A DNA stretch of 64,000 nucleotides from positions 124,001 through 188,000 of the forward strand of contig NZ_JACHVA010000101.1 in NCBI RefSeq assembly GCF_014230055.1. Direction: 5' to 3'. The notes beneath the pieces were generated by a model, which made no database searches, was not told the origin of the DNA, and saw only the letters and a program-made list of their open reading frames with translations. Shown here piece after piece: positions 1,884-41,927 of this stretch. The first letter of the stretch is position 1; every line of letters starts with the position of its first letter. A program made the translations under genes and the position numbers. The DNA is from Puniceicoccus vermicola. Lineage in GTDB: Bacteria > Verrucomicrobiota > Verrucomicrobiia > Opitutales > Puniceicoccaceae.

Positions 1884-4742
1884 ATGTCCGTTTCGTTCGT
1901 GGGTAGGAGTCCTTACTTTTTGCTCTTGGTCTTCTCTGCTTTCATCCCGGGATTAGTTCCGGAGGCAGTGGCTGGTCCCGAAGAGGCATTGTTCTGGAGC
2001 TATGATGAGCCGGGAGCTCTGCCGGAGGACTGGAACGGGATCATTTGCGAGCTGGATGAATCGGAGTCGACACCCGATGGGGGCCCGAGTCTCAAGGTCA
2101 CTCCTCTTCACGCCTTGGGAGAATTGAGATGGCCGCCCTATTTGGTGTTCTCGACCGATACCCGTTCCCTTCTAGGAGTAGGTGAGGTAGAGATTTCCTG
2201 TTGGGCGAAAAGTGATTCGAGCGCCCGGATAAGCATGCGCGTGACGAATGAGAACGCTCGTCCATTCAGCGAGACCCAACGCTTTGACTTGAGAAACGAT
2301 TGGGAGAAAATCGAGTTCTCGGCTCCGTTGACAGAAACCGTATCCGGGAAATGGGCCTCCGTTCCCCGCTTGATCTTCAGCCAGTATGAACCAGGCGAGA
2401 GCGTTTATCTCGGGCCCCTTACGGTCCGGTTTGTGGGGAGCGGATTGCAGGAAGATCCTTCGGAGATGCTGGATCTACCCAAAGGGTGGATCGGGGTGGA
2501 TATGGATAATCTCTATATTCAGCAGGGTTCAGCGTTGGATTTTACGGAGTTCGGTGGAACCTCTCAAGCAGGTATCCATGGCCGGGTGATCGCAAATTCT
2601 TCGGGTGAACTGGCATTCGCGGATCAGCCGAATGCGCCGGTCCGCTTCCTTTCTCTTCAATGGATCCCGAGATTTCCTCCCGGCTTTCGGAACTGGTCAG
2701 ATGAGCAAATCGAGAGCTTTGCGGCAGCAGTCGCCCGTCAGGGATACAATATGGTGCGTTTCCATTTTCTGGATGACTATCTGAGCGGAAACAATCGGGC
2801 TGCCGCGCTGAAATCCGCGTCGCCCGATTCTTTAGCTTTGGCGATGTTAGCCGAAGACGTGCATTGGGATGAAAAGGCGCTTGATCGGACCCATTATCTC
2901 ATGGCTCAGTTGAAAGAGCACGGCATCTACTGGAATATTGATTTGATGACGACCTATGTCGGTCATGGAAACGATCAATTCATTCTGAATGGTAGTGCTG
3001 CCTCGCTAGAGAACGCTCCATTCAACACGAAGGTGCAGATGTACGTCAATCCGATGTTTCGGTCCAATTGGAAGGCGGGAGCGCGCAAGTTGTTGAATGA
3101 AGTCAACCCTTACACAGGTTTAGCGCCGAAAGAGGATCCTGCACTCGCGATCGTAATGTGTTTGAATGAGCAGGAGATTCTCCTCCCTCACCGTGAATAT
3201 GGGTCGGAACTCAACGAACCATGGCATGTATTTTTGACGGAGAAGTACGGAGATTATGAGAATCTGAGAGAGGCTTGGGCGGGAAAATGTGGTTCAATTG
3301 AATTGCCGGAATCCGGCCGCATCGACACGGATGTTCCCTCGATCAATCGTACCGCACTCAGCGATACTCAGGCAGGTTTGGATATGGCCCGGTTCGTTGG
3401 AGAAATGGAGGTTGAAATGTCTGAGTTTTACCTCTCTTTCCTCAAGGAGTTGGAATACGAAGGCTTGGTCACCAACTGGAATATGCGCACCCGGATCGGA
3501 TCAGTTCCGGCAAGATCACTCTTTCCGGTGGTCAGCATGAATCAATATCACGCTCATCCGAAATACATCAAAGGAGGTGCAATTGTTTCCCAAGACAGTG
3601 CTCTGGCGAGTGGAGGGAACAGTTTTAAAGGCCAGTCGGTCGCCCGGTTCCTGGATCGACCCTTTCTCAATACAGAATTTGGACACCTTTTCTGGAATCG
3701 CTATCGTCACGAGCAGGGCATTCTTCATGGCGCAGGGGCAGCCCTTCAGGGGTGGGGGGCGTTGACTCGGCACGGAAATCAGGTCGTCGATGAAGTGGAA
3801 TCGATGAGTTATTTTAACGCGGGTTACGATCCCATTTCCCGTGCGTCTGAAGTGCAGGCTGCGTTTCTCTTTCGACGGGGGGACGTGCGGAGTTCTCCGC
3901 ATACCATTGAGATTCCGCTGACCGATGATTACATTTTTCGGGAAGGTCGCGCGTTGCGCGCATTAGATGATGAGCTGGCACGCATGTGGCCGTTGAGTCG
4001 GATTGGGATTACTTACGGTGAGCCACGCGTTGAGATTGACCCGGATCTCGTGGTTTTGCCGGGACAGACGGCCGAAATTAAAGGTGACCAAATGTTCTCC
4101 GTCGTCGAGGATGCTTCTTCCCGCGAGAGAATTGAGAGAATGGTGGGGGAGCTGCGTGAATTGCAGATCCTTGGGCCCGAAAATCGAACCGATCCAGCGG
4201 CTGGAATTTACGAAAGCGATACGGGTGAGGTTTTGGTGCGGACTGGTAATGGCGGCGAAATGATGGTGGAAACAACGCGTTTTCTTGGCGCCGTCATGAA
4301 GTTTGATAGGCCCTTGAGTGTGGGACCGATGCAGATTCTGCGATGCACGGAGCCCGCATCTATCTCCTTGATTTCGATTGATTCCGACCGCTCACGAGGA
4401 CTACCGGATTCGAGGCGGATCCTTCTGGTCTTGGCGACGGATGCCCGCAACTACGGGATGGAGTTCACGGATGCCACTGAGGATACCGCGAGCTCAATGG
4501 GAGAACTTCCGGTCCTTTTGCAAACGGCCGAACTCAAAGTTCTCCTGAGCGGAGTCCGGGCGGATCTCGGTTTCAAGCTCTTCGCATTGGGCATGGATGG
4601 GAGCCGACGAAGTGAACTCCCTATTTCGGTAGACGCTCAGGGCCGGTTATTGATTGAGCTTGATACTCAGGATCTAGGAGCGATGGGAGGAACTCCCTTC
4701 TTCGAAGTGGTCCGTGAAGATTGGGATAAGGAGAACGAATAA
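1884..4742 (+). CDS. Secreted clan GH-A (GH5-like) glycoside hydrolase
   Basis: 952 aa from the ATG at 1884, chosen because a signal peptide begins there (MSVSFVGRSPYFLLLVF to about AVAG). Residues about 30-200 look like a jelly-roll carbohydrate-binding region. From about residue 210 a TIM barrel follows. The likely acid/base Glu is in CLNEQE (about residue 435) and the likely nucleophile Glu in FLNTEFGH (about 600). A C-terminal beta-rich region completes it. The segment MVRFHFLDDY is typical of large bacterial endoglycosidase-like proteins that have not been assigned to an activity. It lies 35 bp after the PEP-CTERM gene and just before a pseudopilin gene. The substrate is not determined. 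Confidence 0.8.
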   Translation: MSVSFVGRSPYFLLLVFSAFIPGLVPEAVAGPEEALFWSYDEPGALPEDWNGIICELDESESTPDGGPSLKVTPLHALGELRWPPYLVFSTDTRSLLGVGEVEISCWAKSDSSARISMRVTNENARPFSETQRFDLRNDWEKIEFSAPLTETVSGKWASVPRLIFSQYEPGESVYLGPLTVRFVGSGLQEDPSEMLDLPKGWIGVDMDNLYIQQGSALDFTEFGGTSQAGIHGRVIANSSGELAFADQPNAPVRFLSLQWIPRFPPGFRNWSDEQIESFAAAVARQGYNMVRFHFLDDYLSGNNRAAALKSASPDSLALAMLAEDVHWDEKALDRTHYLMAQLKEHGIYWNIDLMTTYVGHGNDQFILNGSAASLENAPFNTKVQMYVNPMFRSNWKAGARKLLNEVNPYTGLAPKEDPALAIVMCLNEQEILLPHREYGSELNEPWHVFLTEKYGDYENLREAWAGKCGSIELPESGRIDTDVPSINRTALSDTQAGLDMARFVGEMEVEMSEFYLSFLKELEYEGLVTNWNMRTRIGSVPARSLFPVVSMNQYHAHPKYIKGGAIVSQDSALASGGNSFKGQSVARFLDRPFLNTEFGHLFWNRYRHEQGILHGAGAALQGWGALTRHGNQVVDEVESMSYFNAGYDPISRASEVQAAFLFRRGDVRSSPHTIEIPLTDDYIFREGRALRALDDELARMWPLSRIGITYGEPRVEIDPDLVVLPGQTAEIKGDQMFSVVEDASSRERIERMVGELRELQILGPENRTDPAAGIYESDTGEVLVRTGNGGEMMVETTRFLGAVMKFDRPLSVGPMQILRCTEPASISLISIDSDRSRGLPDSRRILLVLATDARNYGMEFTDATEDTASSMGELPVLLQTAELKVLLSGVRADLGFKLFALGMDGSRRSELPISVDAQGRLLIELDTQDLGAMGGTPFFEVVREDWDKENE

Positions 4743-10881: not shown

Positions 10882-11580
10882 TTAATGAATCGTTCCCGTC
10901 AGAACGATGTCATCCACTCGGGCGACCTGCAACCAGTTCGGTTCCGAAGTGGTGAGATAGATGTAGATACGGAATTGAACCTCTTTTGAAATATTCTCAA
11001 AGCTGGGGTCGGACCGGAGATCAACTTCGATCTCCTCCCAGTGCGTATTCGAAGCGCTACTAGCCGCTCCTAGATAAATTCTTCCCGCTCCCAGTGTGTT
11101 CTGGTAATCATCGACGCTGGAGCGAATAAAAAACTGAGTGGTAAAGGATTCGGTGCGCTTCTCATTCTGTGCTAATCGTTGGCTGCCAATGCGCACTCGA
11201 AGCTCATCGAGAGATATTCTTTGATCCTCTTTCGGCGCGAGGGAAAACTCGATGAAACTAGCGGTTTCGATTACTCTATCTTCATCTTCCGGAAGATTTT
11301 TACTCGATTTTCCGAGGGCCAGAATCGGCTCACCGCTTAGTTGCATGGCCCGGGCGAATAGGGTGCCGGAGCTTTGACTCCAGCCCGCATCGGCTCCCGC
11401 ACTCACGAGACTAGGGCCATAGTTCAACTTAAGGGTCAAATCTTGGTTGGAGGTGCTTGAGGAGGACTGGAAAGGGTCGCTTTGAAAATCGATCTGAGCG
11501 ATCTCGACCGATTGAGCAGCCAATGGAACCGAGAGTAAAAAGGGAAGAGCTACCGGAATCAGGAAATGGGAGAGCTTCAT
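10882..11580 (-). CDS. Secreted paralogue of the PEP-CTERM protein at 1084, lacking the sorting signal
   Basis: 232 aa with signal peptide MKLSHFLIPVALPFLLSVPL to AAQS. The mature part aligns over its length with the PEP-CTERM protein at 1084-1848: FIEFSLAPKEDQRISLDELR against FDFSLTPAADQEMTLTSFS, FFIRSSVDDYQNTL against YFIRSSQDSYVSNL, and VDDIVLTGTIH near the end. It stops exactly where the PEP-CTERM tail would begin, so it should be released rather than anchored. The operator TCTAACAGTTAGA lies about 100 bp upstream of its start, matching the spacing at the paralogue. The function is unknown. Confidence 0.78.
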   Translation of the reverse strand: MKLSHFLIPVALPFLLSVPLAAQSVEIAQIDFQSDPFQSSSSTSNQDLTLKLNYGPSLVSAGADAGWSQSSGTLFARAMQLSGEPILALGKSSKNLPEDEDRVIETASFIEFSLAPKEDQRISLDELRVRIGSQRLAQNEKRTESFTTQFFIRSSVDDYQNTLGAGRIYLGAASSASNTHWEEIEVDLRSDPSFENISKEVQFRIYIYLTTSEPNWLQVARVDDIVLTGTIH

Positions 11581-13162: not shown

Positions 13163-13882
13163 TCAAAAGTAGCCGCCGCGGTCGTGGATCTCTTCGGCGG
13201 TGAGGCCTGCGGCAACCCATTCCTTGATCTCGCCTTCGTTCCGTTCGATCTGTTCGGCGCGCTCCAGGACGGCGACGGCGATCTTGCGCGGGATGACGAG
13301 GGCACCGTCGATATCGGCGAGCAGGATGTCGCCGGGCTTGATGATGACTTCACCGACGAAGATCGGCACTTGGTAGTTGACGATCTTGGTGTGGGAGAGG
13401 GCCCCGTTGCTCGTGCGGTAACGGTACCAGATCGGGAACTTCTGACTGAGGATGTCCTTGGTGTCACGGATGCCGCCGTCTACGATGGCGCCGCGGCAGC
13501 CGCGCTTCATGGAGGCTTGGGTCATGACGCCTCCCCAGTGCGAGGCGTGGTCGTCTCCGTTGGCATTCCAAATGACGACGTGGCCGGGGCGCAATTCGTC
13601 GAGCATTTCGACGCGCACTTCCATTTCGCCGCCCATGGTGGGGTCCTTCACTGCTTTGACGGTGAAGGCTTCTCCGCAAACAACCATCTCGTCGCGCAGG
13701 GGCATGATGCTTGTCGGTAGGCCCTGATTGGGGAGGCACATTTCTCTGAGGACGTCGTTGACTGCACCTGTATACAGTTTTTCGAAGCGCTTGCAGAGTT
13801 CTTCTAGAGGGATACTCAGTTCAATGTTCTCCACCGTGTCGCGGATTTCCTTGAGTTTATCGACATGCATTTGCTTGCTCAT
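13163..13882 (-). CDS. RraA-like protein, putative sugar-acid aldolase (HMG aldolase family)
   Basis: 239 aa, of the RraA / 4-hydroxy-4-methyl-2-oxoglutarate aldolase family. Diagnostic blocks are AVNDVLREMCLPNQGLP, GEAFTVKAV, GHVVIWNANGDDHASHWGGV, RGCRGAIVDGGIRDTKDI (the G-x-x-x-DG-x-x-RD substrate and metal site) and PGDILLADIDGALVIP. Family enzymes are metal-dependent class II pyruvate aldolases. It lies downstream of the SDR and enolase-superfamily genes on the same strand, so I infer that it cleaves a keto-deoxy sugar acid made by those two. RraA itself (the RNase E inhibitor) is shorter; the context favours an enzyme. Confidence 0.82.
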   Translation of the reverse strand: MSKQMHVDKLKEIRDTVENIELSIPLEELCKRFEKLYTGAVNDVLREMCLPNQGLPTSIMPLRDEMVVCGEAFTVKAVKDPTMGGEMEVRVEMLDELRPGHVVIWNANGDDHASHWGGVMTQASMKRGCRGAIVDGGIRDTKDILSQKFPIWYRYRTSNGALSHTKIVNYQVPIFVGEVIIKPGDILLADIDGALVIPRKIAVAVLERAEQIERNEGEIKEWVAAGLTAEEIHDRGGYF

Positions 13883-17098: not shown

Positions 17099-18550
17099 TC
17101 AGATCAACTCAATCAGTGCCCGATCCGTCAGCAGCAATGGCGAATTGCAGATGGGAAGATCTTTGAAGACGCGGACGCCTTCGGCCTCGGGATCGGGATC
17201 CATCCAAGTTTCGGCGCAGGTGCGTTTGTCCCAGGAGCAGCTAACTTCGTAGACCTTTTGAGTGATGGGCTCGATGAGCACGGGGTCGTCGAGTTTGAGG
17301 CCGTCCTCGATCCAGTAGGTGAGTTCCATTTCGAGAATCTCGGGATCCACCTCAACCGACTCGGGAATCCACCAAGCGAGCACGGGAATATCGCCGCAGA
17401 CGAAGTTGGCCTGCCAAGTAGCGATCTTGGTGTTTCGAGGATCTTCGGCATCCTCCATGACGCTGATGTGCGAGGAGGTGCGACCGAGGGCGGGCTCCAT
17501 CGGGTCCGCGAGGAGGGTCGCTAGTGTTTGCAGGGCGTAGTAGGCCGGTTTGGGCGAGCCGTCCTCGAGACGAACCAGCCCGTAGTGGAAGGTTTCCTTG
17601 AAGGATGCATAGTGGGCGAAGTCCGCCATGTGGAAGTAGCTGCACATCTTGGTGTCGTTGTGCAGTTCGAGGAGGAAGCGGCGTAGGAGCATGCGCGCTT
17701 GGATGTCCTCGCTGAATTTCATCTTTGAGAGAGCGCCGACACCAACCGCCTTGGGCGGTACGTAGGACTGGAAGCCGGATTCGCCCTGCCAGTAGACCAG
17801 ATCCGGGTTGTATTTTTTGCAGATGTGCTGGAAGGCGGGAAATTCTTGGGTCGAATGTCGCTCGGGCACGGATTTGTAGCCGTGGTAGGTGACGATGTCG
17901 ATGAGGTCACCCATGCCGGCTTTCATGCAGTCCTCCAGAAACTTGATGCTCCAAGGCGTCATTCCCCAGGCGATGGCACCCCCGATCAATTTGGCTTCGG
18001 GTTGGATCTTGCGAAGGGGTTCGGCGCTGAGGCGGACGAGATCGACGTAGTCGGCTGCTTTGGGGCCACGTTTCCAGAAGGAGGTGAGGTCCGGCTCATT
18101 CCAGACTTCGTAGTGGTCGATGCGGTCCTTGAAGTGTTCGACCACGGCGGCGACATAGTTTTGCCAGGCCTCGCGTTCGGCTTCGGTCTCGATGGGAGGA
18201 TAGCCGACTCCGGTGTCGCCAGCTCCTTCCGTGTAGAGTTGATTGCCGTAGCTGAGACTCAGCCACGGGGTGACACCTTTCTCAATCAGGGTATCGACCA
18301 CTTCATCAAGCCAGGCGAAGTCATAGACGCCGACTTCCTTTTCGGTCTTGGTCCAGCCGGTCTGCACGCGGGCCCATTTGACGCCGAGTTCGCTGAGAAC
18401 CGGCCAGGCTTGGTGGGGTTCCCACATGTCGCGGTCCAAGGTCTCGAATCCCACGCCGAGACGCGAGGAAGTGATCTCCGTGCTCTTCTTGGGCTTCACT
18501 CTGCCGAGTTTTTTCAGTCCGAAATAGGTGGGGGAGGCGGTTGTTGTCAT
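17099..18550 (-). CDS. GH39-like (clan GH-A) glycoside hydrolase
   Basis: 483 aa with no signal peptide. The TIM barrel has acid/base Glu in VWNEPDLTSFW (about residue 175) and nucleophile Glu in YWQGESGFQ (about 270). The N-terminus carries KPKKSTEITSSRLGVGFETL, and a nearly identical N-terminal stretch survives in the chimera at 37522-37809, so a paralogue once existed there. It is divergent from the SGNH esterase. The gap contains a LacI-type operator matching the one before the LacI regulator at 22356-23420. The glycosidic activity cannot be named from sequence; beta-xylosidase or alpha-L-iduronidase-like members occur in GH39. Confidence 0.75.
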   Translation of the reverse strand: MTTTASPTYFGLKKLGRVKPKKSTEITSSRLGVGFETLDRDMWEPHQAWPVLSELGVKWARVQTGWTKTEKEVGVYDFAWLDEVVDTLIEKGVTPWLSLSYGNQLYTEGAGDTGVGYPPIETEAEREAWQNYVAAVVEHFKDRIDHYEVWNEPDLTSFWKRGPKAADYVDLVRLSAEPLRKIQPEAKLIGGAIAWGMTPWSIKFLEDCMKAGMGDLIDIVTYHGYKSVPERHSTQEFPAFQHICKKYNPDLVYWQGESGFQSYVPPKAVGVGALSKMKFSEDIQARMLLRRFLLELHNDTKMCSYFHMADFAHYASFKETFHYGLVRLEDGSPKPAYYALQTLATLLADPMEPALGRTSSHISVMEDAEDPRNTKIATWQANFVCGDIPVLAWWIPESVEVDPEILEMELTYWIEDGLKLDDPVLIEPITQKVYEVSCSWDKRTCAETWMDPDPEAEGVRVFKDLPICNSPLLLTDRALIELI

Positions 18551-24578: not shown

Positions 24579-27500
24579 ATGATTTTCAGACGACAGCGTC
24601 GTGAGTGCGATTCGGGGTTTGCGCTAGTCGTGGCCTTGAGCTTGATGGCTTTTGTTCTCTTGCTGCTTCTCAGTTTGAGCTCCCTGATATCGGTGGAACG
24701 CAAATCGGTCGCCATTACCACCAACGAACTTCAGGCCAGATCGACCGCTCTTTTGGCGATGCAGAATGCGCTTGGAGAGTTGCAGAAGCATGCCGGACGC
24801 GACCAGCGAGTGTCGGCCGGTGCTTCGATCTTAGACACAGACCCGGAGACAATGGCTGTCGAGTGGGGCGGGGAGGAATTCGAGGAGGAATATTGGACCG
24901 GGATTTGGGATGAGAACGGTCAGCTAAAAACATGGCTGGTTAGCGGTAACGAGGGCTTGTCACCTGCTGATGCCGATTTTGTCAGTCCGGTCGACGAGGT
25001 CGTTAATGGCGCATCTTTTTACGATGATGATTCCGTGCAAGCACCACTTGTGCTGATCGAGCAGGGGGCCTATGCATTTTGGGTTGGAGACGAAGGTGTG
25101 AAGGCAAAGCTGCCTTTGCTTCAAGGCGCCACTGCATCGACCTCGCCGCTCGCATCCGCCCAGAAAGTCGAAGTCTCCCTGATGACGGATCTGGATTGGC
25201 TGGACGGTTCGTCGGTTTCCCCGGGCGAACTCGAGAAAGTCGTCACCACGGAGACCATGAAATTGCTGGGAAGCACTCCGGATCAAGTCGCGAGTTTGGA
25301 TGCGCACCGCCACGATTTAAGCCACTATGGTTACGGGCTTTTGACTGATCCGGTCGAGGGCGGTCTGAAGAAAGATTTAACATTGGCCCTGTTCGATGGC
25401 TCCGATTTACCCTCCGGCCAGATTTTCGAACCAGTTGGCGGTGGAGCCCCTTCGTTGACCGACCCCGGTGGGCCGCTCTGGGGTCAATTGCAGAGCTGGG
25501 CACAGGCCGGTTCGAGTGCGGTCAATTCGGATGGCAGTGCAAACGTCCGCCCGGCGACGGATGTGCAGACCGGTATTTTTCCGGTCGTGACGCAGATGCA
25601 ATTCTATGTCGCGCCCAGATACGTGAAGGATACGGACGCGCAAACACTACGGGTCTATTTGGAGATCTACCCGGCCATCACATTGTGGAATCCCTACGAC
25701 AGACCTTTGACAGGTAATGATTTCAAAATCGATATTGGGCGGAACTTCTGGGATTACTCAAAAGCATCGCCGGAATATAATCATTACAACAGCACCTTCT
25801 ATGCATGGAAATTGACACTGTGGGATTCAACCGGGGCATCTGAGGAGTACAACCATCAATCGACACAGAAATTCCCCAGTGCCGGAGCCGTGTATGGAGC
25901 TATGCACTTCGACCTCGGCAGTGTGAGGCTCAATCCCGGAGAATCCATGGTTTTCAGTGCTCCTGCGGGGAATGGCAGCATGGATATCCAGACAACCGGA
26001 TACAGCTATTATCCACTGGCCCCGGGCTTCCGGCCGACGGCTTATTACTCGCTGGAAACCGATGTCGAGCGGCCGTATGATCCGGCCGATCCGGACTCGG
26101 AGGACTATGAATTTGTTCTGGCCGCTTGGCGGACCATTACTTTGAGCCTCCGCTTGCGGAATGGGGATGACATACTGCAGCAAGTCTTCTGGCTGGGAGG
26201 TGTTCAAGAGGCGACCCCCGCAAGAACGGCTCTACTGGAGTTGGGAAGCACCGATATTTTGGTCAATCCGAAAGGAGTGGTCGGTGTGAAATCGGTGCGT
26301 AATTTTACGGATTCGCTTGGTAATGCGGGCGAGGATGAATCGATTCAGTGGCTGGCGCACCAGAATCCAAGGGGTGGCAGCCAGGGGCTTATACCGATTT
26401 TCCTCTATAACGAAACGCCTTTGAATATTCAAACCAGCCACATCCTGAACCCGTCATTCTATGCATCCAGTTATCTCAATGGCTACGAGTATGACTTTGG
26501 CCTGACTAACATTGGCAATGGCCTGAGTGTCGATTCCGCCACGATTGATGAAACGGTGCTTTTTGAGACACCTCCGGGCCGGGATCGCCTGCATGGGGTC
26601 GGGCAATTGATGCATGCACCCTTGTATTACTCCGGAGCGGATGTTTCCCGGGCGGATGCGGCAAACTCGGAAAACAAAAATGACACAGCCAACCGCTTGC
26701 GCTGGTGGCGTTTTGACAACAGCATGCCCGCCTATGCCGTCGGCAACAGCGAGGCGGATCCACGTATTCCGCTCGACGCCCTGTTTGTGGATTGGAATAG
26801 CGGCCTCTATGATACGGCATGGACTACAACATACGCGATGGTCGAGGGGCGCCACTATGACCATTCTTATCTGCTCAACCGCTCTCTTTGGGATGGCTAT
26901 TTTTTCTCGGCACTTCCCAATGTCACCAGCCGCACATCCGGAAATTCGCGCGTGGTCGCATTGGATGAGACCCGGACGAGTGTGATGACGGGCGATGAGG
27001 CCGCTGCGGAGTTCATGATCGATGGCGCGTTCAACATCAACTCGACCTCGGAGGAAGCCTGGCGTGCTGTTTTGGGAGCCTTCTTTGGCGTGGAGGTCGA
27101 GTCGTCGGCGACGGATGCTTCGCCGTTTCTGCGCGTGCATGACAACCCGGGCGATCTTTTTGATGCCGCCAACGATGACTCGGAGGACGAGCCCGCCTAC
27201 CATGGCTATCGTGCTTTGACCGAAGAGCAGATCGCCAATCTGGCCCGGCAAATTGTCAAACAGGTCAAATGGCGGGCACTGGGACGTGACCGGCCATTTA
27301 CCTCGATGGCCGACTTTGTGAATCGCGATCCAACCGCTGCCGCACCCTCGGGATTGGGCGACGCCGACGCATTTCGTCTGCGGGGGGCTTTGAGTTCCGC
27401 GATCGCGGCTGCGGATCAGATTTCGACCGTGGATGCCGGCGAGCTTGGCATTGCACCAGCGGATGCAGTCATCAATGAAGCCCTCTCGGAATCGGCTTAC

Positions 27501-27854
27501 GAGGCGACGCCGCGCAATGAGCCCGCATTCACCCAAGAAGCACAGGAAGGCTGGCGCACGGAATCCCTTCCGGGCTGGCTGACGCAGGGGGACTTACTGG
27601 CTCGGCTGGGTCCTGTTTTGAACGTCCGTTCCGATACGTTTACGATTCGTGCCTATGGGGAAACCCGTGACCCGATTACCGATACACCCACCTCCAAGGC
27701 GTGGTGTGAGGCCACCGTGCAGCGTGTGCCGGAGTTTGTCGATGTCGACGCCGACTCGCCCGAGACTCCGCTTGCCAGCTTGAACGGCCCCGCCAACGCC
27801 GAATTCGGTCGGCGTTTTGTCCTCGTCGACTTTCGTTGGCTCGCAGAACTCTAG
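24579..27854 (+). CDS. Verru_Chthon cassette protein A-like (pilin-like N-terminus)
   Basis: 1091 aa. The N-terminus RRECDSGFALVVALSLMAFV is a pilin-like leader with a Gly-Phe junction and a hydrophobic helix. It continues ARSTALLAMQNALGELQKHAGRDQRVSA, the signature of the Verru_Chthon cassette protein A family, known as a large helix-anchored protein from Verrucomicrobiota. Most of the protein is extracytoplasmic. Near the C-terminus FTIRAYGETRDPITDTPTSK and WCEATVQRVPEFVD are also typical. Canonical cassettes hold A, B, C and D; here only A is recognisable, followed by an unrelated secreted protein. The role is unknown; secretion or a surface structure is the usual guess. Confidence 0.82.
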   Translation: MIFRRQRRECDSGFALVVALSLMAFVLLLLLSLSSLISVERKSVAITTNELQARSTALLAMQNALGELQKHAGRDQRVSAGASILDTDPETMAVEWGGEEFEEEYWTGIWDENGQLKTWLVSGNEGLSPADADFVSPVDEVVNGASFYDDDSVQAPLVLIEQGAYAFWVGDEGVKAKLPLLQGATASTSPLASAQKVEVSLMTDLDWLDGSSVSPGELEKVVTTETMKLLGSTPDQVASLDAHRHDLSHYGYGLLTDPVEGGLKKDLTLALFDGSDLPSGQIFEPVGGGAPSLTDPGGPLWGQLQSWAQAGSSAVNSDGSANVRPATDVQTGIFPVVTQMQFYVAPRYVKDTDAQTLRVYLEIYPAITLWNPYDRPLTGNDFKIDIGRNFWDYSKASPEYNHYNSTFYAWKLTLWDSTGASEEYNHQSTQKFPSAGAVYGAMHFDLGSVRLNPGESMVFSAPAGNGSMDIQTTGYSYYPLAPGFRPTAYYSLETDVERPYDPADPDSEDYEFVLAAWRTITLSLRLRNGDDILQQVFWLGGVQEATPARTALLELGSTDILVNPKGVVGVKSVRNFTDSLGNAGEDESIQWLAHQNPRGGSQGLIPIFLYNETPLNIQTSHILNPSFYASSYLNGYEYDFGLTNIGNGLSVDSATIDETVLFETPPGRDRLHGVGQLMHAPLYYSGADVSRADAANSENKNDTANRLRWWRFDNSMPAYAVGNSEADPRIPLDALFVDWNSGLYDTAWTTTYAMVEGRHYDHSYLLNRSLWDGYFFSALPNVTSRTSGNSRVVALDETRTSVMTGDEAAAEFMIDGAFNINSTSEEAWRAVLGAFFGVEVESSATDASPFLRVHDNPGDLFDAANDDSEDEPAYHGYRALTEEQIANLARQIVKQVKWRALGRDRPFTSMADFVNRDPTAAAPSGLGDADAFRLRGALSSAIAAADQISTVDAGELGIAPADAVINEALSESAYEATPRNEPAFTQEAQEGWRTESLPGWLTQGDLLARLGPVLNVRSDTFTIRAYGETRDPITDTPTSKAWCEATVQRVPEFVDVDADSPETPLASLNGPANAEFGRRFVLVDFRWLAEL

Positions 27855-27882: not shown

Positions 27883-28644
27883 ATGAATGCCCCCCGTTTT
27901 CATCCGATCTGGTTGCTGCTCCTGACGTTCTCAATTCTTTCCGTGGAAGGTTCCCGCGTTCTGCCGTTTCAGGTCTACCTATGGCCCGGGGGGCCGAACC
28001 CGAATATGGAGGCAAGGTTGAGGGCGCAGGCGTCTTCGACGGATTACGACTCGATGGTCATGGTCGAGTATGTGCCGCCCACGATTCAATTCAGTCCGAC
28101 CGGGGGGGAGGAAGTCGAAACGATCCGGGCTGCGGAAAGTCGTCTCTCGCCCGTCTACCGCTATGAGGGAGAAGGGCCGTTGTTTTTCTTTCGGGAGATC
28201 CAATCGGGCGAAGAAGTGGTTCGCCGTGTTCCTTTGGGATCGGTTGTCGTTCCGGAGACGATCGAAAGAGCGCTGCTCTTGTTCATGCCCAACCCGACGA
28301 GTCCCGATACTTTCAGGATCTATCCGATCGACAACTCCCTCTCGAAAACCAAACCGGGAGAAGCCTGTCTCCACAACGTGACTCAAAGCGAGATCGGCTG
28401 CCTATTCAATGAAGAGCAAGTGCTGCTCGGCCCCGGAGAACAGAAAATCGTCTCAATCGGTGCCTCGGAGCGCATTACGATTGTGGTCCGAATCGCCGCC
28501 CAGGATGACGATGGAGACTGGAAGCAACGCCATGCCAGACAACTCTCCGTCCAGCCCGACGATAGCTTGACGATTCTAATCTACAACAAACCCGAAAAGG
28601 CCAACGCCTTCCGCATCTTGAAATTGGAGAACCCAAAACAGTAG
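27883..28644 (+). CDS. Secreted protein of unknown function in the Verru_Chthon module
   Basis: 253 aa. The signal peptide is MNAPRFHPIWLLLLTFSILS to about VEGS. The remaining sequence is predicted mostly beta (for example FQVYLWPGGPNPNMEARLRA, RALLLFMPNP, ERITIVVRIAAQDDDGDW). I do not recognise a family. It starts 28 bp after the Verru_Chthon A-like gene, so the two are very likely cotranscribed and may work together. It lacks a PEP-CTERM or pilin signal, so it could be periplasmic or released. Confidence 0.7.
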   Translation: MNAPRFHPIWLLLLTFSILSVEGSRVLPFQVYLWPGGPNPNMEARLRAQASSTDYDSMVMVEYVPPTIQFSPTGGEEVETIRAAESRLSPVYRYEGEGPLFFFREIQSGEEVVRRVPLGSVVVPETIERALLLFMPNPTSPDTFRIYPIDNSLSKTKPGEACLHNVTQSEIGCLFNEEQVLLGPGEQKIVSIGASERITIVVRIAAQDDDGDWKQRHARQLSVQPDDSLTILIYNKPEKANAFRILKLENPKQ

Positions 28645-28720: not shown

Positions 28721-29833
28721 TTATTGGGTGGGCACAAAAGGAGCACAGGATTGGCGTTCGATGAGCTGGGTGTTCACCAGGGCGTGCCGGACGATGGAGT
28801 CGGGGGTGCGCATGCGCTCTTCGAGCAGATCCACTGCAGCGCGACCGAGTTCTTCTTCGTTGAGTGAAACGCTGGTCAGCGGCGGGGTGGCGTCTTCGCA
28901 GTAGGGCGTGTTCATGAATCCGGTCAGGCTCATATCGCGGGGAAGTGAAAGGCCTTGCCGGGACAAAGTGCGCTGGAAGCATAGCGCGTAGGTGTCCGCC
29001 GCGCAGACGATGGCGGTCGGACGTTGGTCGTCCATAGCCAGGAAATCGCGGCTCGTGCGTTCAATCAGTTGGTCGTAGCTTTCGCCAGTGGCGGCGTTGC
29101 GGCGGGGGACTTTTATCAGCCGGGGATCGGTGGACAGCCCGAACTCGCCCCGCATGCGCTCAAAGCATAGCAGGCGTTCGGTATGGATCGGTGTGGTGCG
29201 TGCGCCTTCGTCCTCACTGTAAAAACCGATACGGCGGTGCCCCAGGTCCATGAGGTGTTTCAGGACTTGGGCCATCCCTCCGTAGTTGTCGCACATCACC
29301 GAAGGAACCGAGTGGAGGAGGTCGCGATGCATCAGCATGACGGTCGGCAAGCGTTGCGCGACTTCCTGAATCCAGGTGTCGGGGATGCCGCGGTTGACCC
29401 GGAGGATGACGGATTTGACCAGATTATCCTCAATCATTGCAGGAAGTACGCCACTCCGGGCGTCTTCCTCGCAGCAGGCGATGACGAGGTGTCCGCCCCG
29501 TTCGCGGACTCGCCGTTCCACTCCATGGATCAGGCTCGTCTGAAACGAGGTCGACTGGCGTTTTGAGTAGGTGATCTCGTCCATGAGCATTCCGATAGGC
29601 CCCAAGCGCTGCCCGTTCTTGTGGGTAATGCCTGAATTGACGCGAGGCTGATAACCCTTGTCCTGGACAACCCGCATGACGCGTTGGGTGAGGGTCGGGT
29701 TAACGTCGGCTTTGCCGTTGAGAACCCGGCTTACGGTGCCCAGTGACACCCCGGCCTGCTGTGCGATGTCACGCATGCGTAGTTGTGGGGATCGACTTTT
29801 CTTGTTCATGAACATATTGAAGTCGTCTGTCAT
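28721..29833 (-). CDS. LacI-family transcriptional regulator
   Basis: About 370 aa. The HTH is MRDIAQQAGVSLGTVSRVLN, followed by GKADVNPTLTQRVMRVVQDK. The sensor domain includes LMDLGHRRIGFYSEDEG and AIVCAADTYALCF, and the C-terminus VSLNEEELGRAAVDLLEERM is classic LacI. The start is uncertain: a TTG at 29845 and ATGs at 29833, 29815 and 29809 are all in frame. The last two overlap the palindrome TGTTCATGAACA, which would let the protein block its own start region. It is divergent from the heparinase-like lyase and probably controls it. Confidence 0.9.
   Translation of the reverse strand: MTDDFNMFMNKKSRSPQLRMRDIAQQAGVSLGTVSRVLNGKADVNPTLTQRVMRVVQDKGYQPRVNSGITHKNGQRLGPIGMLMDEITYSKRQSTSFQTSLIHGVERRVRERGGHLVIACCEEDARSGVLPAMIEDNLVKSVILRVNRGIPDTWIQEVAQRLPTVMLMHRDLLHSVPSVMCDNYGGMAQVLKHLMDLGHRRIGFYSEDEGARTTPIHTERLLCFERMRGEFGLSTDPRLIKVPRRNAATGESYDQLIERTSRDFLAMDDQRPTAIVCAADTYALCFQRTLSRQGLSLPRDMSLTGFMNTPYCEDATPPLTSVSLNEEELGRAAVDLLEERMRTPDSIVRHALVNTQLIERQSCAPFVPTQ
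29803..29814. promoter_or_regulatory. Palindrome TGTTCATGAACA at the LacI start region
   Basis: A perfect 12-bp palindrome overlapping the alternative start codons of the LacI gene at 28721-29833. Half sites TGTTCA (29871-29876) and TGAACA (29908-29913) and a near-copy (29914-29925) follow within 120 bp, all in the divergent regulator/lyase gap. The clustering is the argument for an operator. Confidence 0.5.
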
Positions 29834-29906
29834 CCTGTGTTGCAACTGTTATTTGCTTCCTCGGGTGGATTGTTCATAGTGGGTGTGCTTGACGAATTGG
29901 ATTTTT

Positions 29907-34629: not shown

Positions 34630-37503
34630 TCATTTTTTCGAAAGCGTGTGGCGTATGATTTCGTTGTAGCTGACGGGTTTGAACGAGATCCAAGTCCATT
34701 CCCCATCGCTGCCGATGGGGATGACCAGGCGCTCGATTTCTTTTCTTGCGGAGGTGGCCAACTCGCCGGGTTTTCCTGCGGCCCAGTTGATTCGGACGCA
34801 GCCGGTATCTGTCGTGAACACAGCGCCTCCCGGGCTCGCGATCTGAATCCGGGTGCTGTCCATATTGCGATACAGCGGCAGGTTGACATAGCATTCCTGA
34901 ACCGGTTCGTGAGCTTTGAAGCGGACGCCGATTTTAAGCGGTGATTCCGAATAATCGTATCGCCAAGTGAGGGTGCCTTTCGGCGATTTCACTTCGGAGG
35001 TGATGGTATGCACATTGTTTTGCGCGTTGCTCTCCGTCGATGCCCGTTCTTTTCCGGAATGGAAGAAGTCTCCGGATGGAGTGGTCCCGTAGATGGCGGC
35101 AAAGGTTAGATCCTCGGGTTTCGTTTGATGTTTCGACGTCGGATCCCCGGACGGAATAACGGAACTGAGGAATGTTCCGGTGCCGGGGGTCCAGAGTGCG
35201 GACGGTGCGCCCCCGGTGATACTGTTGTGGTTCTTGACCTTGGTGCCGGCCACGTCACTAAAAACCATACCGTAGATGCCGTTTTGATTCCATGCCAGCA
35301 AACCGGGGAGTGCCCAGGTTGCGCCGTCCTCTTCGTAGGGGAGTCGGTCCGGTTCGACGATCTTGGGCTGGGTGTAGCATTTGACAATGCCGGACACCCA
35401 GGTGCCACCACCGGCGTCATAGCCATCGGCACCCTTTTCGAGTCCGTTTTCAATGGATTGGCGGATCCAGCCTTCCCGGTTGGCGGCGAATGAAAATGTG
35501 CCCGCAATGCCGAGGCCTCGTTCAGGGGCCGGAGTCAGGGCGAAACGAGCCGCGGAGAGTGGAAAATCGGACTTTGTCATCAAGGTGCCGGGGTAGCCCA
35601 AGTCTCCAATGTAGGCCGATTTTCGTGCGTTCATATGATTCGGACCGGCAAGACTGCCATCCGGTTGTGGCAGCCAGAAAAAGCTATTGAAGCGGAGGTT
35701 GCGTTGGATCGCGTCCTCGATCAGGGCGAGCAGTTCCGGATCGGCGTCCGGGAGTTCGCGGTATTTGTAATAGGAGATGGCGACACAGAAGGAGTTGAGC
35801 TTGTCGTAATTGCCGTCGGGGCCGTAATTTTCCAGGTAATAGCCCGTCGGATGGATGCCGAATTTGGAATTCGGACCATAGGTATTGCCATAGTAGGCAC
35901 GTGCCTGCCGCTCGAAGTATCCCAGGAAGCGCTTTTCGCCAGTCGCCAGATACGTATCCAAGTGCGCGAGCAGCATGTGCGACCATTGGTTGGATTGGTA
36001 CGCCTGATAGTCGGCGATCTTATCACCCAAGGCAATCAAGCCTTGGCGCCAGACTTCGCGCACCTCCTCATCGAGCAGCGGCTGGAGTTCGAGGAAGGGC
36101 TCCGCGAACGAACCTCCGTAAGCAAAGAAAATATGAGTGATGGGATAGACGCTCTTCAGTAGCGACCCCTCCCGCATGAGATCGTCTCCCTGCAGGTTGC
36201 TGATGTTTACTAAAGAGCCGAGTGCGGCTCGTTTGGTTAATTCCCGACTGTGGTAGGCCGGATTGAGGGGAGAATCGAAAGTGACGGCTCCGGCGAAGGC
36301 AGCGGGATCGAAGTTCGTTGCCCCTCCGATGGGGCGAAAGTCCTCTTCCGAACTTGGCGCTTCGCGAGGAGTATCCCGGGTGCTGCCGAAATTGAGATCC
36401 ATCGGATCCAAATACCGGTTCTGTTGCTTCACCTTGAAATCGATGGTGTTCAAGGCACCATACTTGCCGAAGCCGAGGACATGATAGGGCAGATTCGTCA
36501 AGTCGTCGGGTATCGTTTGGGGAAATTCAAAGGATACATCACGGTCCAAGCCGGATGCGATTTCCGCCGCCAGTTCCCGGGCGCGCGCTTGGAGTGGTCC
36601 GGCGACCCATTTGCCCAGGCTCTCGACCATGCCGCCCCTGAGCCTCGCGGCGGCCTCCGGCGAAGGGCAGAGCAGACCGGGGACGCCCTCCACAGTCAAG
36701 ACCCCGTTGAACTCTTCGGGGAGCGTGAGCTGAAGCACTTCCCCTGTGGGCGTGGGACGGGGGATCAAGCGTCCGGCGCGTCTTGTCGGATCCGATTCCA
36801 CTTCGGCTAAGGTGTCCCCCCGTAGGTTCAGGATCCGGGCTCCCCGGGTGTTTCCCCGGTCGATTCCCACCATCATCAGGAAGGCCGAAGGAGGTGTCCA
36901 AATGAAGGCTTTCCCGGAGACGCCGGGGGTGCTGTCGGTCGTGCCGAGGGACATCTCCCCCCGAACCCCCCAGATCTCCGTTTCGGGGAGACGGAACTCG
37001 ATCAAATCGTTACTGCGCCCGCCGGAAAAGGAGACACGCCAAATGCCGGGCGCGGCATCCTTTGCGGTGAGTTCCCGCACGCTGATGGAATCCGGCTGAT
37101 CCGTGAATTCGGCGTAGTCGGCGAGGGAGCCATCCGGTGCGATCAGGCGGGCGAGGGCGATCGGCGTATAGGGCTCGTTTTCCTGGTTGGAGATATTGGT
37201 TTGGCGTGCAACGACTACGCGGACCGTCCCGTCCGCATCCGGTTGCAGTTCGGCCAGCATGCCGGCCCCCCGGACGGAGCCGCCGAGCGTATAAATCCGG
37301 GCTTGCTGGGCGACGGGATATCTCAGGGAAAGGGATTCAGAAACAAGGGAATCGCCTTTGAGTGTGAAAGTGTTGTCACCGTAGACGGCAGGACCGCCAT
37401 CTTCCTGCGCATTCAAGTGCGCATAGGGTGAAGAGGTCGCCGCGATGGTGCTAACGCCTAGAATCATTGCGGAACCTAGAAGAGATTGAATCAGGATGTG
37501 CAT
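34630..37503 (-). CDS. Large secreted protein with predicted alpha/alpha-barrel, possible polysaccharide lyase
   Basis: 957 aa with signal peptide MHILIQSLLGSAMILGVSTI to about AATS. The N-terminal 300 residues are beta-rich. A central helical part holds YQSNQWSHMLLAHLDTYLAT, YYGNTYGPNSKFGIHPTGYY and NYDKLNSFCVAISYYKYREL, reminiscent of toroid lyases. The C-terminal part is a beta-sandwich (TFAAIYGTTPSGDFFHSG, NNVHTITSEVKSPKGTLTWR). That layout fits alpha/alpha-toroid polysaccharide lyases, but I cannot place it in a known family. Its start lies only 18 bp after the end of the GH39'/LacI' relic, so it may be driven by a captured promoter. Confidence 0.6.
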   Translation of the reverse strand: MHILIQSLLGSAMILGVSTIAATSSPYAHLNAQEDGGPAVYGDNTFTLKGDSLVSESLSLRYPVAQQARIYTLGGSVRGAGMLAELQPDADGTVRVVVARQTNISNQENEPYTPIALARLIAPDGSLADYAEFTDQPDSISVRELTAKDAAPGIWRVSFSGGRSNDLIEFRLPETEIWGVRGEMSLGTTDSTPGVSGKAFIWTPPSAFLMMVGIDRGNTRGARILNLRGDTLAEVESDPTRRAGRLIPRPTPTGEVLQLTLPEEFNGVLTVEGVPGLLCPSPEAAARLRGGMVESLGKWVAGPLQARARELAAEIASGLDRDVSFEFPQTIPDDLTNLPYHVLGFGKYGALNTIDFKVKQQNRYLDPMDLNFGSTRDTPREAPSSEEDFRPIGGATNFDPAAFAGAVTFDSPLNPAYHSRELTKRAALGSLVNISNLQGDDLMREGSLLKSVYPITHIFFAYGGSFAEPFLELQPLLDEEVREVWRQGLIALGDKIADYQAYQSNQWSHMLLAHLDTYLATGEKRFLGYFERQARAYYGNTYGPNSKFGIHPTGYYLENYGPDGNYDKLNSFCVAISYYKYRELPDADPELLALIEDAIQRNLRFNSFFWLPQPDGSLAGPNHMNARKSAYIGDLGYPGTLMTKSDFPLSAARFALTPAPERGLGIAGTFSFAANREGWIRQSIENGLEKGADGYDAGGGTWVSGIVKCYTQPKIVEPDRLPYEEDGATWALPGLLAWNQNGIYGMVFSDVAGTKVKNHNSITGGAPSALWTPGTGTFLSSVIPSGDPTSKHQTKPEDLTFAAIYGTTPSGDFFHSGKERASTESNAQNNVHTITSEVKSPKGTLTWRYDYSESPLKIGVRFKAHEPVQECYVNLPLYRNMDSTRIQIASPGGAVFTTDTGCVRINWAAGKPGELATSARKEIERLVIPIGSDGEWTWISFKPVSYNEIIRHTLSKK

Positions 37504-37521
37504 GGTTGTGTTGGGGCAGAG

Positions 37522-37809
37522 TTATTTGACTGGGGGGCAGGATTGACGTTCGACCAATCGAGTGGGAATGGTCGCATGCCGTGTCGGAGCCGATGGATTG
37601 CGCATTCTTCAGTCAAGAAGCTCAAAGGCAACCCTGCCGATTTCCTGAGCGCCGAGTGTGATACTGATCAAGGGCGGATAAGAGTGTTCACAGGCCTGGG
37701 TATTCATCACGCCGATGCGGGATGAGGCAATCTCGGTGCTTCGTTTGGGCTTGAGCGTTCCGACGGTGGGGAATTTTGAAAATTCAGGAATAGATGGTTT
37801 GGTATTCAT
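37522..37809 (-). pseudogene. Chimeric relic: GH39-like N-terminus fused to a LacI C-terminus
   Basis: 96 codons in one frame with one internal TGA at 37609-37611. The first part reads LKPKRSTEIASSRIGV and matches KPKKSTEITSSRLGV at the N-terminus of the GH39-like protein encoded at 17099-18550. It then switches to CEHSYPPLISITLGAQEIGR, VAFELLD, stop, RMRNPSAPTRHATIPTRLVE and RQSCPP, which is the C-terminal end of a LacI-type regulator. The join therefore removed most of both genes, keeping the first 5' end and the second 3' end. The TGA replaces the usual Glu/Asp before R-M. No function is expected for the product. Confidence 0.72.
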
Positions 37810-37977
37810 TTCAGTGGATAACGACTCTTAGTGTGGAGATGTTGCTGGCGGTGGCACGCTTCGACGATTAACCGACTTCTGCGATGACTTAATAAATATG
37901 GGCGTTGACCGGGGATCTTGATTCGGGTGCCGGACAAGCACTAGATTAAGGACCAATCCGAACTGCGGAACCTCCCC

Positions 37978-38083
37978 ATCCCGCGTCCGCGGGATCCCCC
38001 CCTCCTACGAGTAGGAGGGGAATTGTATTTTTGATTTAGACTCCTCTCCTGCATGCAGGGGAGGGGGACCAGCGACAGCTGGT
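37978..38083. repeat. Cluster of four adjacent hairpins, REP-like element
   Basis: In the 360-bp gap at 37810-38169 four inverted repeats follow each other. They are ATCCCGCG-TC-CGCGGGAT (37978-37995), CCCCTCCTAC-GA- and its complement (37999-38020), TCTCCTGCA/TGCAGGGGA (about 38045-38062) and ACCAGC-GACA-GCTGGT (38068-38083). Such a dense GC-rich array resembles REP/BIME elements mobilised by RAYT transposases, but no RAYT gene is in the window. It lies between two gene relics, at a likely rearrangement site. The rest of the gap shows nothing recognisable. Confidence 0.55.
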
Positions 38084-38169
38084 GGAGGAGGTCCGACCCA
38101 GTCTTATTCTCTGCAACCAAGCCTCGCAACTCGGCCTAATCTACCTGCCATTCGGGTTTATCCTCAGCC

Positions 38170-38479
38170 CTATTTCTTCGCGTAGAATGAACTGAGGAAG
38201 GCAATGATTTGATTTTCGAGTTTCTCATGCAGATCCGGCTCGGCCTTGCCGTTGCGCCAGATGTTGTGTCCGCGTTCTTTACTGCCTTCATAAAGAAACA
38301 AGTTCCCGTAGGCTTTTTCGCCAGCGATTTCGCTGTATTGAATATCGCGTAAGATCTTCAGGGTTTCGGTACTTTCAGTGGTCATGGGGCGGAGCTGCGT
38401 TTGCGCTTAGGCTGAACATTGTGGAGAGAAGGCCTATGAGGGCCATCTTTTGTCGCTTGATGAGGAATTTTTGTGCCAT
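38170..38479 (-). pseudogene. Internally deleted secreted alpha/beta-hydrolase (esterase) remnant
   Basis: Two overlapping minus-strand pieces. From the ATG at 38477-38479, MAQKFLIKRQKMALIGLLST begins a signal peptide that ends APPHDH, then stop at 38375. In the next frame 71 codons read ILRDIQYSEIAGEKAYGNLF, LYEGSKERGHNIWRNGKAEP and ENQIIAFLSSFY. This is the C-terminal end of an alpha/beta-hydrolase, with the His-containing GHN turn and the final helix. A functional esterase would be about 280-320 aa, so the core, including the nucleophile, is missing. It is consistent with an internal deletion plus a frameshift. Confidence 0.6.
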
Positions 38480-38534
38480 GTCTTTTGAGTTTGGATGGGG
38501 CGGTTGGGAGATCTGAGGATCTCGAAAGGCGCGG

Positions 38535-41500
38535 TTAGTTGCTGTGCAAGTTTTCTTGAAGCTCTTGGAGATCGATCCAGGCGTGAAGCTTCCCCGGGTC
38601 AAAGCTCTGGCTGACTTCCAGATCTTTTTGAGCTCCCTCGGTGTCCCCAAGCGCCCATTTTGCTTTGCCAGTGAGGTATTTAAAATGAGCCGTGCGGGCC
38701 TCACTTTCCTGTTCTACGTAGGAGATGAAGAAGGGCGTTGTCCCAAAGAATCCGGCACTTTGCTCCTGCAGGGATTGGTTCCAGTCTCGAAGGCAATTGC
38801 GTAGTATTCGCTCGGCACGGGCGGATTGTCCCAGCGCTTGCAGGGCTCGGGCTTGGTAAACGGGAAGTTCGGGGAGGTGCATGTTCGAGAAGTAATCGAT
38901 CTCGAGCTTGAGAATGTCTTGGTAGAAGGGGAGTGCTTCCTCGCGGCGATCCAAGGCTTCGAGGCATTGTGCTTCGAAAATCTGATGTGGCACCGCCAAG
39001 TTTCACTCCAGAGGCCGGTTTTCACGCTCTGTGGCAGGTCTTGGGCGTCCCGAAAATGTTGCAGGGCTGCGACATAGTTGCCCTTTCGAATCTAAATCCG
39101 TCCCATCATGTGGTGAGAGAACATGTATTGTTCCACAACAGCGTGCTCTCCCCCTTCACAGGGAACGAAGTTATAAACGTTGAGCAGAGCGAGGGCACCC
39201 TGAGGGTCGACAGCTTGGTTGTGAGCGCGGGCCCATTCGAGAATCAGATCGTCCCGGATCGTCTTGGTTGGGTCGACGTGACTCTTGAGAAACTGTAGGC
39301 GCTCGGACGGTGGGAGCCCCAACTTGGTCATGACGTAGGCGATTTCGTAGGTTAGCTGCTCGTCTCCGGGGGCACAGGCCAAGGCCTTGTGCAATAAGGG
39401 GAGAACCTCCAGCTTTCGGTCGAGATGGCTGAAGTAGGCGACGGCCAGATTTCGATGGATCGGAGCAAAGCCGTCATTGAGTGACTTCGACTGTTCCCAG
39501 TGGAAGGCCGCTTCGTCGTAGCGGCACTTATCATACAGAAGGCATCCCAAGTAGTATTGGGCTTTTGCGGTCTGCTGAGGATTGTGCCCAATGACGGCTT
39601 CCAATATCGCCATTTCTTCCAGGCGGAAAGGGTAGGTTTGTGGATCGTTGACCGCTTCCCCGCGAGCGATGGCACTCTCCGCGGCTCGGTTTTTACCGAG
39701 CTCCAGCTCGATTCCGGCAACGGTGTAGTATACCATTGGGTCAGCTCCTTCGGGCAGGGCTTCCAGAAGATCTTTTGCTTCGTTAAGGAAACCAGCTCCA
39801 AGGAGTTCAAAGGCCAGATCCAGTGAGGTTTGCGAGGGCGAACTTTTCAGGGTGTTGACGAATGTTGTTACGTCATCGCCTTCGGCGAGCGTGCGTAGGT
39901 AGCGGACCATCCAGTGAAGCGGATCCTTCTGAAGCGCTATGTCTATGCGCTGTCGTGCACGTTTGATTCGACCGGTTTTCAGGTCGGCTAGAATCGTCAA
40001 GGACGTGGCCAGAGGGTTGTCTGAGGCATGATCGAGGGCGGCTTCGGCATGCTCAAGCATGCGATCATATTCGCAGCGGATGCCGTCGATACTAGAGATC
40101 TGAGTCAGCGCTTTGGAGCGCATGGCTTCATCCCAACTCGCTTTGTAGAAGGTGTCGTAGGCTGAGTCGGTTTCGCCTAGGGCCTTCAGTACAAGCCCTA
40201 AGGTGTAGAAGATCTGTCCGTTGCATGGATTGCCGTTGTGTCGAGTGAGCACATCGCGTGCGTGTTCCAGTTGTTCTCGGGCTTCGCGGAAGCATCCTTG
40301 TTTATAGCGCAAGGCTCCGAGGTCAATGAGGGCCGGTGCATAATCCGGATCGCGTTTGAGGGCGGTTTCCCAATAGACCTCCGGAAGGTCTTTAGGGCTG
40401 CGATATTGGTCCACATGGGTGCCGGCGAGATGGAGCTCTTGAGCACTGTGGAAATAGGACGGGCCGGGGAGGTCGGTCCATGGTTCCGGAATTTCTTCGG
40501 CCACTTTTGGGGTAGTCTGGTAGAACGCGATGCGATTTCCCTCCTTTGTCAGAACCTCGATCTTTAGGGCTTCCGGATGGATTGGCTTTTCGATCCTCAA
40601 CTCGAGCGCTTCTGCGGGGCTGAGATCGCGTTGAATGTCGAGGATACATTTGTCCTCAGAGGTCAGGCGTATATTCGCTCCTTCGAAGGCGCGTGTCGAC
40701 AGAATGGATAGGCGTGCATGCTCCTGATCGAGATTGAGTGCGCACTGGGTATTCGCGTAGGTAGGGGCGCCGATCTTATGGATGGGATACCAGAACTGGG
40801 AGAACTTCTTCGTTTCGTAGGGCTTTAGCCAGGCAAAGTCGGGTTGGTTGTCGGTATAGCTGCCGGCCATAAGCTCCGCATATTCGCCATCCGTGTCGGT
40901 CAGTGCGCGCTCCCAGGTTTGGGAGAGCTGGTTGTATGCCCAGGTAAAAAGCTTCTTACCGGGCGAAACGTGATGGTTGGCTACGTGGACGACGCCGCAT
41001 TCCTTTCCGTGGTCGTAGCCGCCGAAGAAGTCATATTGGGAGGCGGCCGAGAAGTAGGAGGTCGGGCTCTTGGTGTTGGCGTGCTGCTGGATGTCGATAT
41101 CTTCACCGAGGCGGATGCCGTTATAGGTGCCAGAGTTCTTCGGCCAGGTGCCAACGGAGCGGTGGTAGTGAAAGTTCACATAGGAGACATCCTTAGGGAA
41201 GAAGATCTGGTAGTTTTCGTTGACCGGCACCGCGGCGTTCTCCCACCAGAGGAAAGAGCGTGTGAGAGGGGTTCGGTTGCATACTTGAACGCGAGTTTCG
41301 AAGATGGCTTCGCCGGGTGCCAGTCGGATTCCGACCATTCCTTTCATCCTTTCGATGGGGTCGTGTTCGGAGAGCCAGACGGTTACCGCGCCATCCTCGC
41401 CGTGCTGGATCTCATAGTCTACCGGCATGAAGGTCGAGGGGCGGTGATGGTAGGGCCAGTTAAACTCGACTCCCCCCGAGATCCAATTTCCCAGAGCGCC

Positions 41501-41815
41501 AATGAGCGCGGGTTTGATGACACTTTGCTTGTAGAAAAAGTCGTAGCCCGTGGTTTTATCAAGAGCGGAGAAGATGCGTCCTCCGATCTCCGGAAGAATC
41601 TCGATTTTGAGAAACTCGTTTTCGAGACAGATAATCTCGTATTCCCGGTCGACCTTCTCCGCGCGTAGAGTTTTCAGGACGACCCGGTTAGGGTAGGGAC
41701 GCCCACTGGTACGTTGATGCACTCGGTTTTCCGCGAACATGGGGAGCTCCTCGGCTTCCGCCTGAGGGTAGGTCGGGATGGCACGACGAAGGACTCGGAC
41801 AGAGGTGGAATTCAT
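38535..41815 (-). pseudogene. DUF5107/TPR protein gene, broken by a TAG stop and a frameshift
   Basis: From the ATG at 41813-41815 (MNSTSVRVLRRAIPTYPQAE) about 907 codons run to a TAG at 39092-39094. The N-terminal DUF5107 beta-sandwich has EIICLENEFLKIEILPEIGG, GGVEFNWPYHHRPSTFMPVD and FLWWENAAVPVNENY. TPR-like repeats follow (ALIDLGALRYKQGCFREARE). After the TAG the same frame continues with KGNYVAALQHFRDAQDLPQS, a normal TPR helix. Near 39003 the coding signal shifts to another frame (PHQIFEAQCLEALDRREEAL) and ends at 38535. The full gene would encode about 1,090 aa. The truncated protein may still carry the DUF5107 domain. It is divergent from a GntR/LacI-type regulator. Confidence 0.8.
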
Positions 41816-41890
41816 AGGCTGAAGATGTTTGAACAGGTCTGGTAAGCTACAGGTAGATTTTGACCTAAATTCGGGAATTGTTAGAATTGA

Positions 41891-41903
41891 ATCGGATTCC
41901 GAT
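41891..41903. promoter_or_regulatory. Palindrome ATCGGATTCCGAT in the DUF5107/regulator gap
   Basis: A 6-bp inverted repeat around one central base, 24 bp before the regulator start at 41928. It is a candidate operator for that regulator. No second copy was found in the window, so the evidence is only symmetry and position. Confidence 0.35.
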
Positions 41904-41927
41904 GAGAAAAGTTGTATGAACAAGTGA

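Follow-up and report, generated by a model that had tools for sequence, protein, structure and literature searches.

The polysaccharide-use locus of Puniceicoccus vermicola described here carries a chimeric pseudogene which is probably the scar of a gene loss, left by one deletion that ran from a glycoside hydrolase gene of family GH39 into a LacI-type regulator gene. The chimera takes up 288 bases (37809-37522, minus strand) of the window, as the whole stretch of 64,000 nucleotides analysed is called, and in it a GH39-type start is followed by a LacI end with no gap between them. Its eroded codon usage and the lack of any homologue found mark it as a pseudogene and not a small gene, a record of ordinary gene loss. 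It is very probably without function, being at most transcribed as leader DNA before the gene for a secreted protein of 957 aa.

Structure of the chimeric frame

The frame starts with an ATG at 37809-37807 and, on translation, comprises 66 codons up to a TGA at 37611-37609 (66-aa ORF 37809..37609, minus strand). Past the TGA it runs for 28 further codons to a TAA at 37524-37522, which is the natural LacI stop position, and 18 nt lie between this TAA and the ATG of the 957-aa gene. The initial annotation had described the stretch as an in-frame fusion of GH39-like and LacI sequence, with a single TGA further along the frame and with intact relatives of both parents in the window. This description proved right, coordinates included, since both pieces are significant, the change point between them is sharp, one TGA precedes the natural TAA, and both relatives are present: an intact GH39 gene (17099-18550, minus strand; Pfam PF01229, E 5e-19), the closest relative found of the N-terminal remnant, and an intact LacI regulator gene (28721-29845, minus strand; Pfam LacI and Peripla_BP_3), the closest relative found of the C-terminal one.

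The GH39-type remnant consists of codons 1-34 (37708..37809, minus strand). Residues 2-34 of the chimera align, with no gaps, to residues 2-33 of the protein encoded at 17099-18550 (KPKRSTEIASSRIGV / KPKKSTEITSSRLGV), with a score of 74 that none of 3000 shuffles reached (shuffle maximum 51), and a family profile built from 31 GH39 relatives gave an E value of 0.0033 (nominal database of 10,000 proteins). Taken on its own this piece is modest, with 34 codons and an own-genome E value of 0.015; it becomes convincing because the ATG stands in register with the GH39 start and because the match ends exactly where the LacI match begins. The likeness to GH39 glycoside hydrolases (PF01229) is thus confined to the start of the same-genome protein, whereas any catalytic domain is missing: the frame departs from GH39 after codon 34, and the TIM barrel is absent, with no Pfam match.

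The regulator remnant, of LacI/PBP type, covers codons 35-95 including the TGA (about 61 codons; 37525..37707, minus strand). Residues 30-93 of the chimera are 52% identical to the C-terminus of the LacI protein encoded at 28721-29845 (own-genome E 1e-16); the score of 161 was reached in 0 of 3000 shuffles, the best of which scored 53, and a profile from 21 LacI relatives gave an E value of about 1e-16, again for a nominal database of 10,000 proteins. No close relatives of this LacI gene were found in GTDB contigs. When set against LacI/GalR-family regulators (PF00356, PF13377), the last 61 codons or so correspond to the final part of the sugar-binding domain, natural C-terminus included, but the DNA-binding domain is lacking, most of the sensor domain is gone and the frame is broken by an internal stop. 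The N-terminal helix-turn-helix is not found in the chimera, and the GH39 piece stands in its place.

The two pieces meet between codons V34 and M35 (37705..37710, minus strand), the best change point by the two-parent gap-free score; it is sharp and is placed after residue 34, at window positions 37708/37707. Gly33, the neighbour of the join, is common to both parents, and at the join itself distant relatives have just one Gly codon in common. That the join is in frame is a one-in-three chance and proves nothing.

Relic or small gene

The homology in the chimera is disrupted, each parent being cut off at the join and the frame being interrupted by the TGA. In agreement with this internal stop, 98.7% of window-gene pieces of the same length have a higher codon-usage score than the chimera (1.3 percentile), and the contrast between GC3 and GC2 is lower than in 98.2% of such pieces, both figures being indicative, as they come from 96 codons only. 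Conserved homologues of the 66-aa chimera had been named beforehand as the observation that would argue for a real gene; none was found, which favours a relic. In fact, no homologue of the chimera turned up in the genus (two other genomes), in the family, in the order (273 genomes) or in 10 genomes of the family with the closest GH39, and the same searches return only the LacI tails of ordinary regulators. A search of Rfam gave no match either. Two places in the own genome (C101:68246 and C139:15916) were considered as a second chimera and rejected as chance matches overlapping other frames.

A survey of prokaryotic pseudogenes from 2004 describes disabled copies of known genes, many of them from failed horizontal transfer (PMC522871). 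The chimera resembles the surveyed pseudogenes in being a disabled, lineage-specific fragment of known families, placed beside genes of scattered distribution, and differs from them in joining two families at one sharp, readable point. No published account of a comparable GH39-LacI relic was found.

The competing reading, that of a real 66-aa small gene serving a separate function, such as a truncated sensor or a leader peptide, can appeal to a frame that is open from its ATG and lies directly ahead of the 957-aa gene. It is nevertheless highly improbable, since the chimera has no homologue in any genome searched, its codon usage is eroded, its homology extends past the TGA as far as the natural end of LacI, and the 66 aa have no Pfam match. 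Equally slight is the chance that a transcript or short peptide of the chimera was retained after the loss of the local regulator, as a leader controlling the lyase-like 957-aa gene.

Origin of the join

The proposed course of events is as follows. An ancestral locus would have held two genes on one strand, first GH39 and then a LacI-type regulator, upstream of the lyase-like 957-aa gene. One deletion, which analogy with related loci puts at some 7-9 kb, would then have fused codon 34 of the GH39 gene to the last 61 codons or so of the regulator gene, in frame by chance, and the remnant would subsequently have decayed, gaining the TGA and losing its codon bias. The two pieces, their join, the stop, the eroded codon usage and the absence of homologues of the chimera are observed; a single deletion in cis as the cause of the join, and the size given for it, are what we infer as likeliest.

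The order needed for this exists in the same genome, in a paralogous locus (L057), where a GH39 gene at 3779, a LacI gene at 10972 and a homologue of the 957-aa gene at 13555 follow one another, all on the plus strand, with heparinase-like, pyruvyl-transferase-like and other genes between. In two further loci (L055 and L080) a LacI gene lies 5-7 kb downstream of GH39 on the same strand. Moreover, four planctomycete loci have a LacI gene just upstream of the homologue of the 957-aa gene, on the same strand and with a pseudopilin-like gene between, so that a regulator is to be expected at the very spot where its tail remains here. The GH39-LacI order is not conserved, since most other GH39 loci have no LacI gene nearby or have it placed elsewhere.

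An intact allele, with both GH39 and LacI genes at this exact position, was found neither through the 957-aa gene (in the order, the phylum and GTDB) nor through the DUF5107-TPR gene on the other side of the relic. The homologues of the 957-aa gene in these three sets are only distant, the planctomycete ones having LacI upstream and, by the comparison made, no GH39; the loci of DUF5107-TPR homologues contain neither GH39 nor LacI in 20-kb stretches. Looking for relatives with an intact locus, as had been suggested, thus yielded only the paralogous L057 with the needed order, and any size or limits given for the deletion are accordingly conjectural. The initial proposal that a regulator-plus-glycosidase locus was deleted stands in part: it is the best explanation of the relic and agrees with the synteny in L057 and in the planctomycetes, but the intact allele that would complete it was not found.

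The main rival to the deletion is a joint left by an old tandem duplication or by a translocation, since the LacI and GH39 genes of the window are arranged as this kind of joint requires: on the minus strand LacI (28721-29845) precedes GH39 (17099-18550), so that a tandem duplication of the stretch would also bring the beginning of a GH39 gene up against the end of a LacI gene. No more than 13 kb separates these closest relatives of the two pieces, and their orientation is the required one. We consider this origin unlikely. With an identity of only about 50% to each of the two window genes, the relic does not come from a recent copy of them; its flanks, the 957-aa gene and a dispersed repeat, differ from those of the window GH39 and LacI genes, and the DNA at 37504-37937 occurs just once in the genome. 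As the genome is in 143 contigs, an assembly artefact joining two real genes might also be suspected, and this has very little probability because the supposed parents are missing from the assembly, which, besides short chance matches and the relic itself, has nothing more than 52% identical to either piece. The join also lies inside a 369-kb contig, and its frame has a decay mutation. A deletion within the ancestral locus thus remains the preferred origin.

Surroundings of the relic

The 957-aa gene (34630..37503, minus strand) encodes a secreted protein with no sequence match in Pfam, NCBIfam or PDB, for which AlphaFold2 and fold matches predict a polysaccharide-lyase-like fold, a helical barrel plus a beta sandwich. 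In the model (pLDDT 81.7, pTM 0.86), residues 335-945 or thereabouts resemble PL33, heparinase III and PL17 lyases (Z 16-18.6, rmsd 4-5 A over about 490 residues), though likeness of fold is no proof of lyase activity. Relatives of the gene are absent from the 272 other searched genomes of the order; across the phylum and GTDB, members of its family occur in planctomycetes, Paenibacillus and clostridia, all of them distant outside the own genome. On the strength of the model, the family is possibly an undescribed one of lyases or epimerases. The relic had also been credited with leaving a promoter before this gene, a claim that found no support: 0 sigma-70-like sites, for 0.8 expected by chance, were seen on both strands of 37450-38540, a scan which concerns this promoter type and no other.

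Upstream of the relic, the DUF5107-TPR gene (39092-41923, minus strand) is broken as well. It ends in a TAG at 39092-39094 with homology going on to about 39023, a frameshift lies near 39000-39022, and the C-terminus resumes in an ORF at 38535-38999, the whole pseudogene spanning 38535-41923 on the minus strand; the homologues are intact, with 1081-1349 codons. With this gene broken beside the relic, the interval of 37.5-39.1 kb can be taken as a small decaying zone. A copy of a palindromic dispersed repeat (37938-38134; 65 genome matches, many partial) is placed between the two broken genes.

Elsewhere in the window, the gene at 24579-27854 (plus strand) encodes a long protein that matches no Pfam family and whose N-terminus is hydrophobic and pilin-like; it is adjoined by a gene at 27883-28644 (plus strand). 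Counterparts of the long protein, about 36% identical, lie near the GH39 genes of L055 and L057, the latter being a second polysaccharide-use locus (contig C101:246000-265900), and a counterpart of the product of the adjoining gene, about 30% identical, lies near the GH39 gene of L055.

Biological meaning

The kind of event recorded here is ordinary bacterial gene decay. It would mean that a sugar-use locus has lost a glycosidase and a regulator but has retained its large lyase-like gene, for which local regulation may now be missing.
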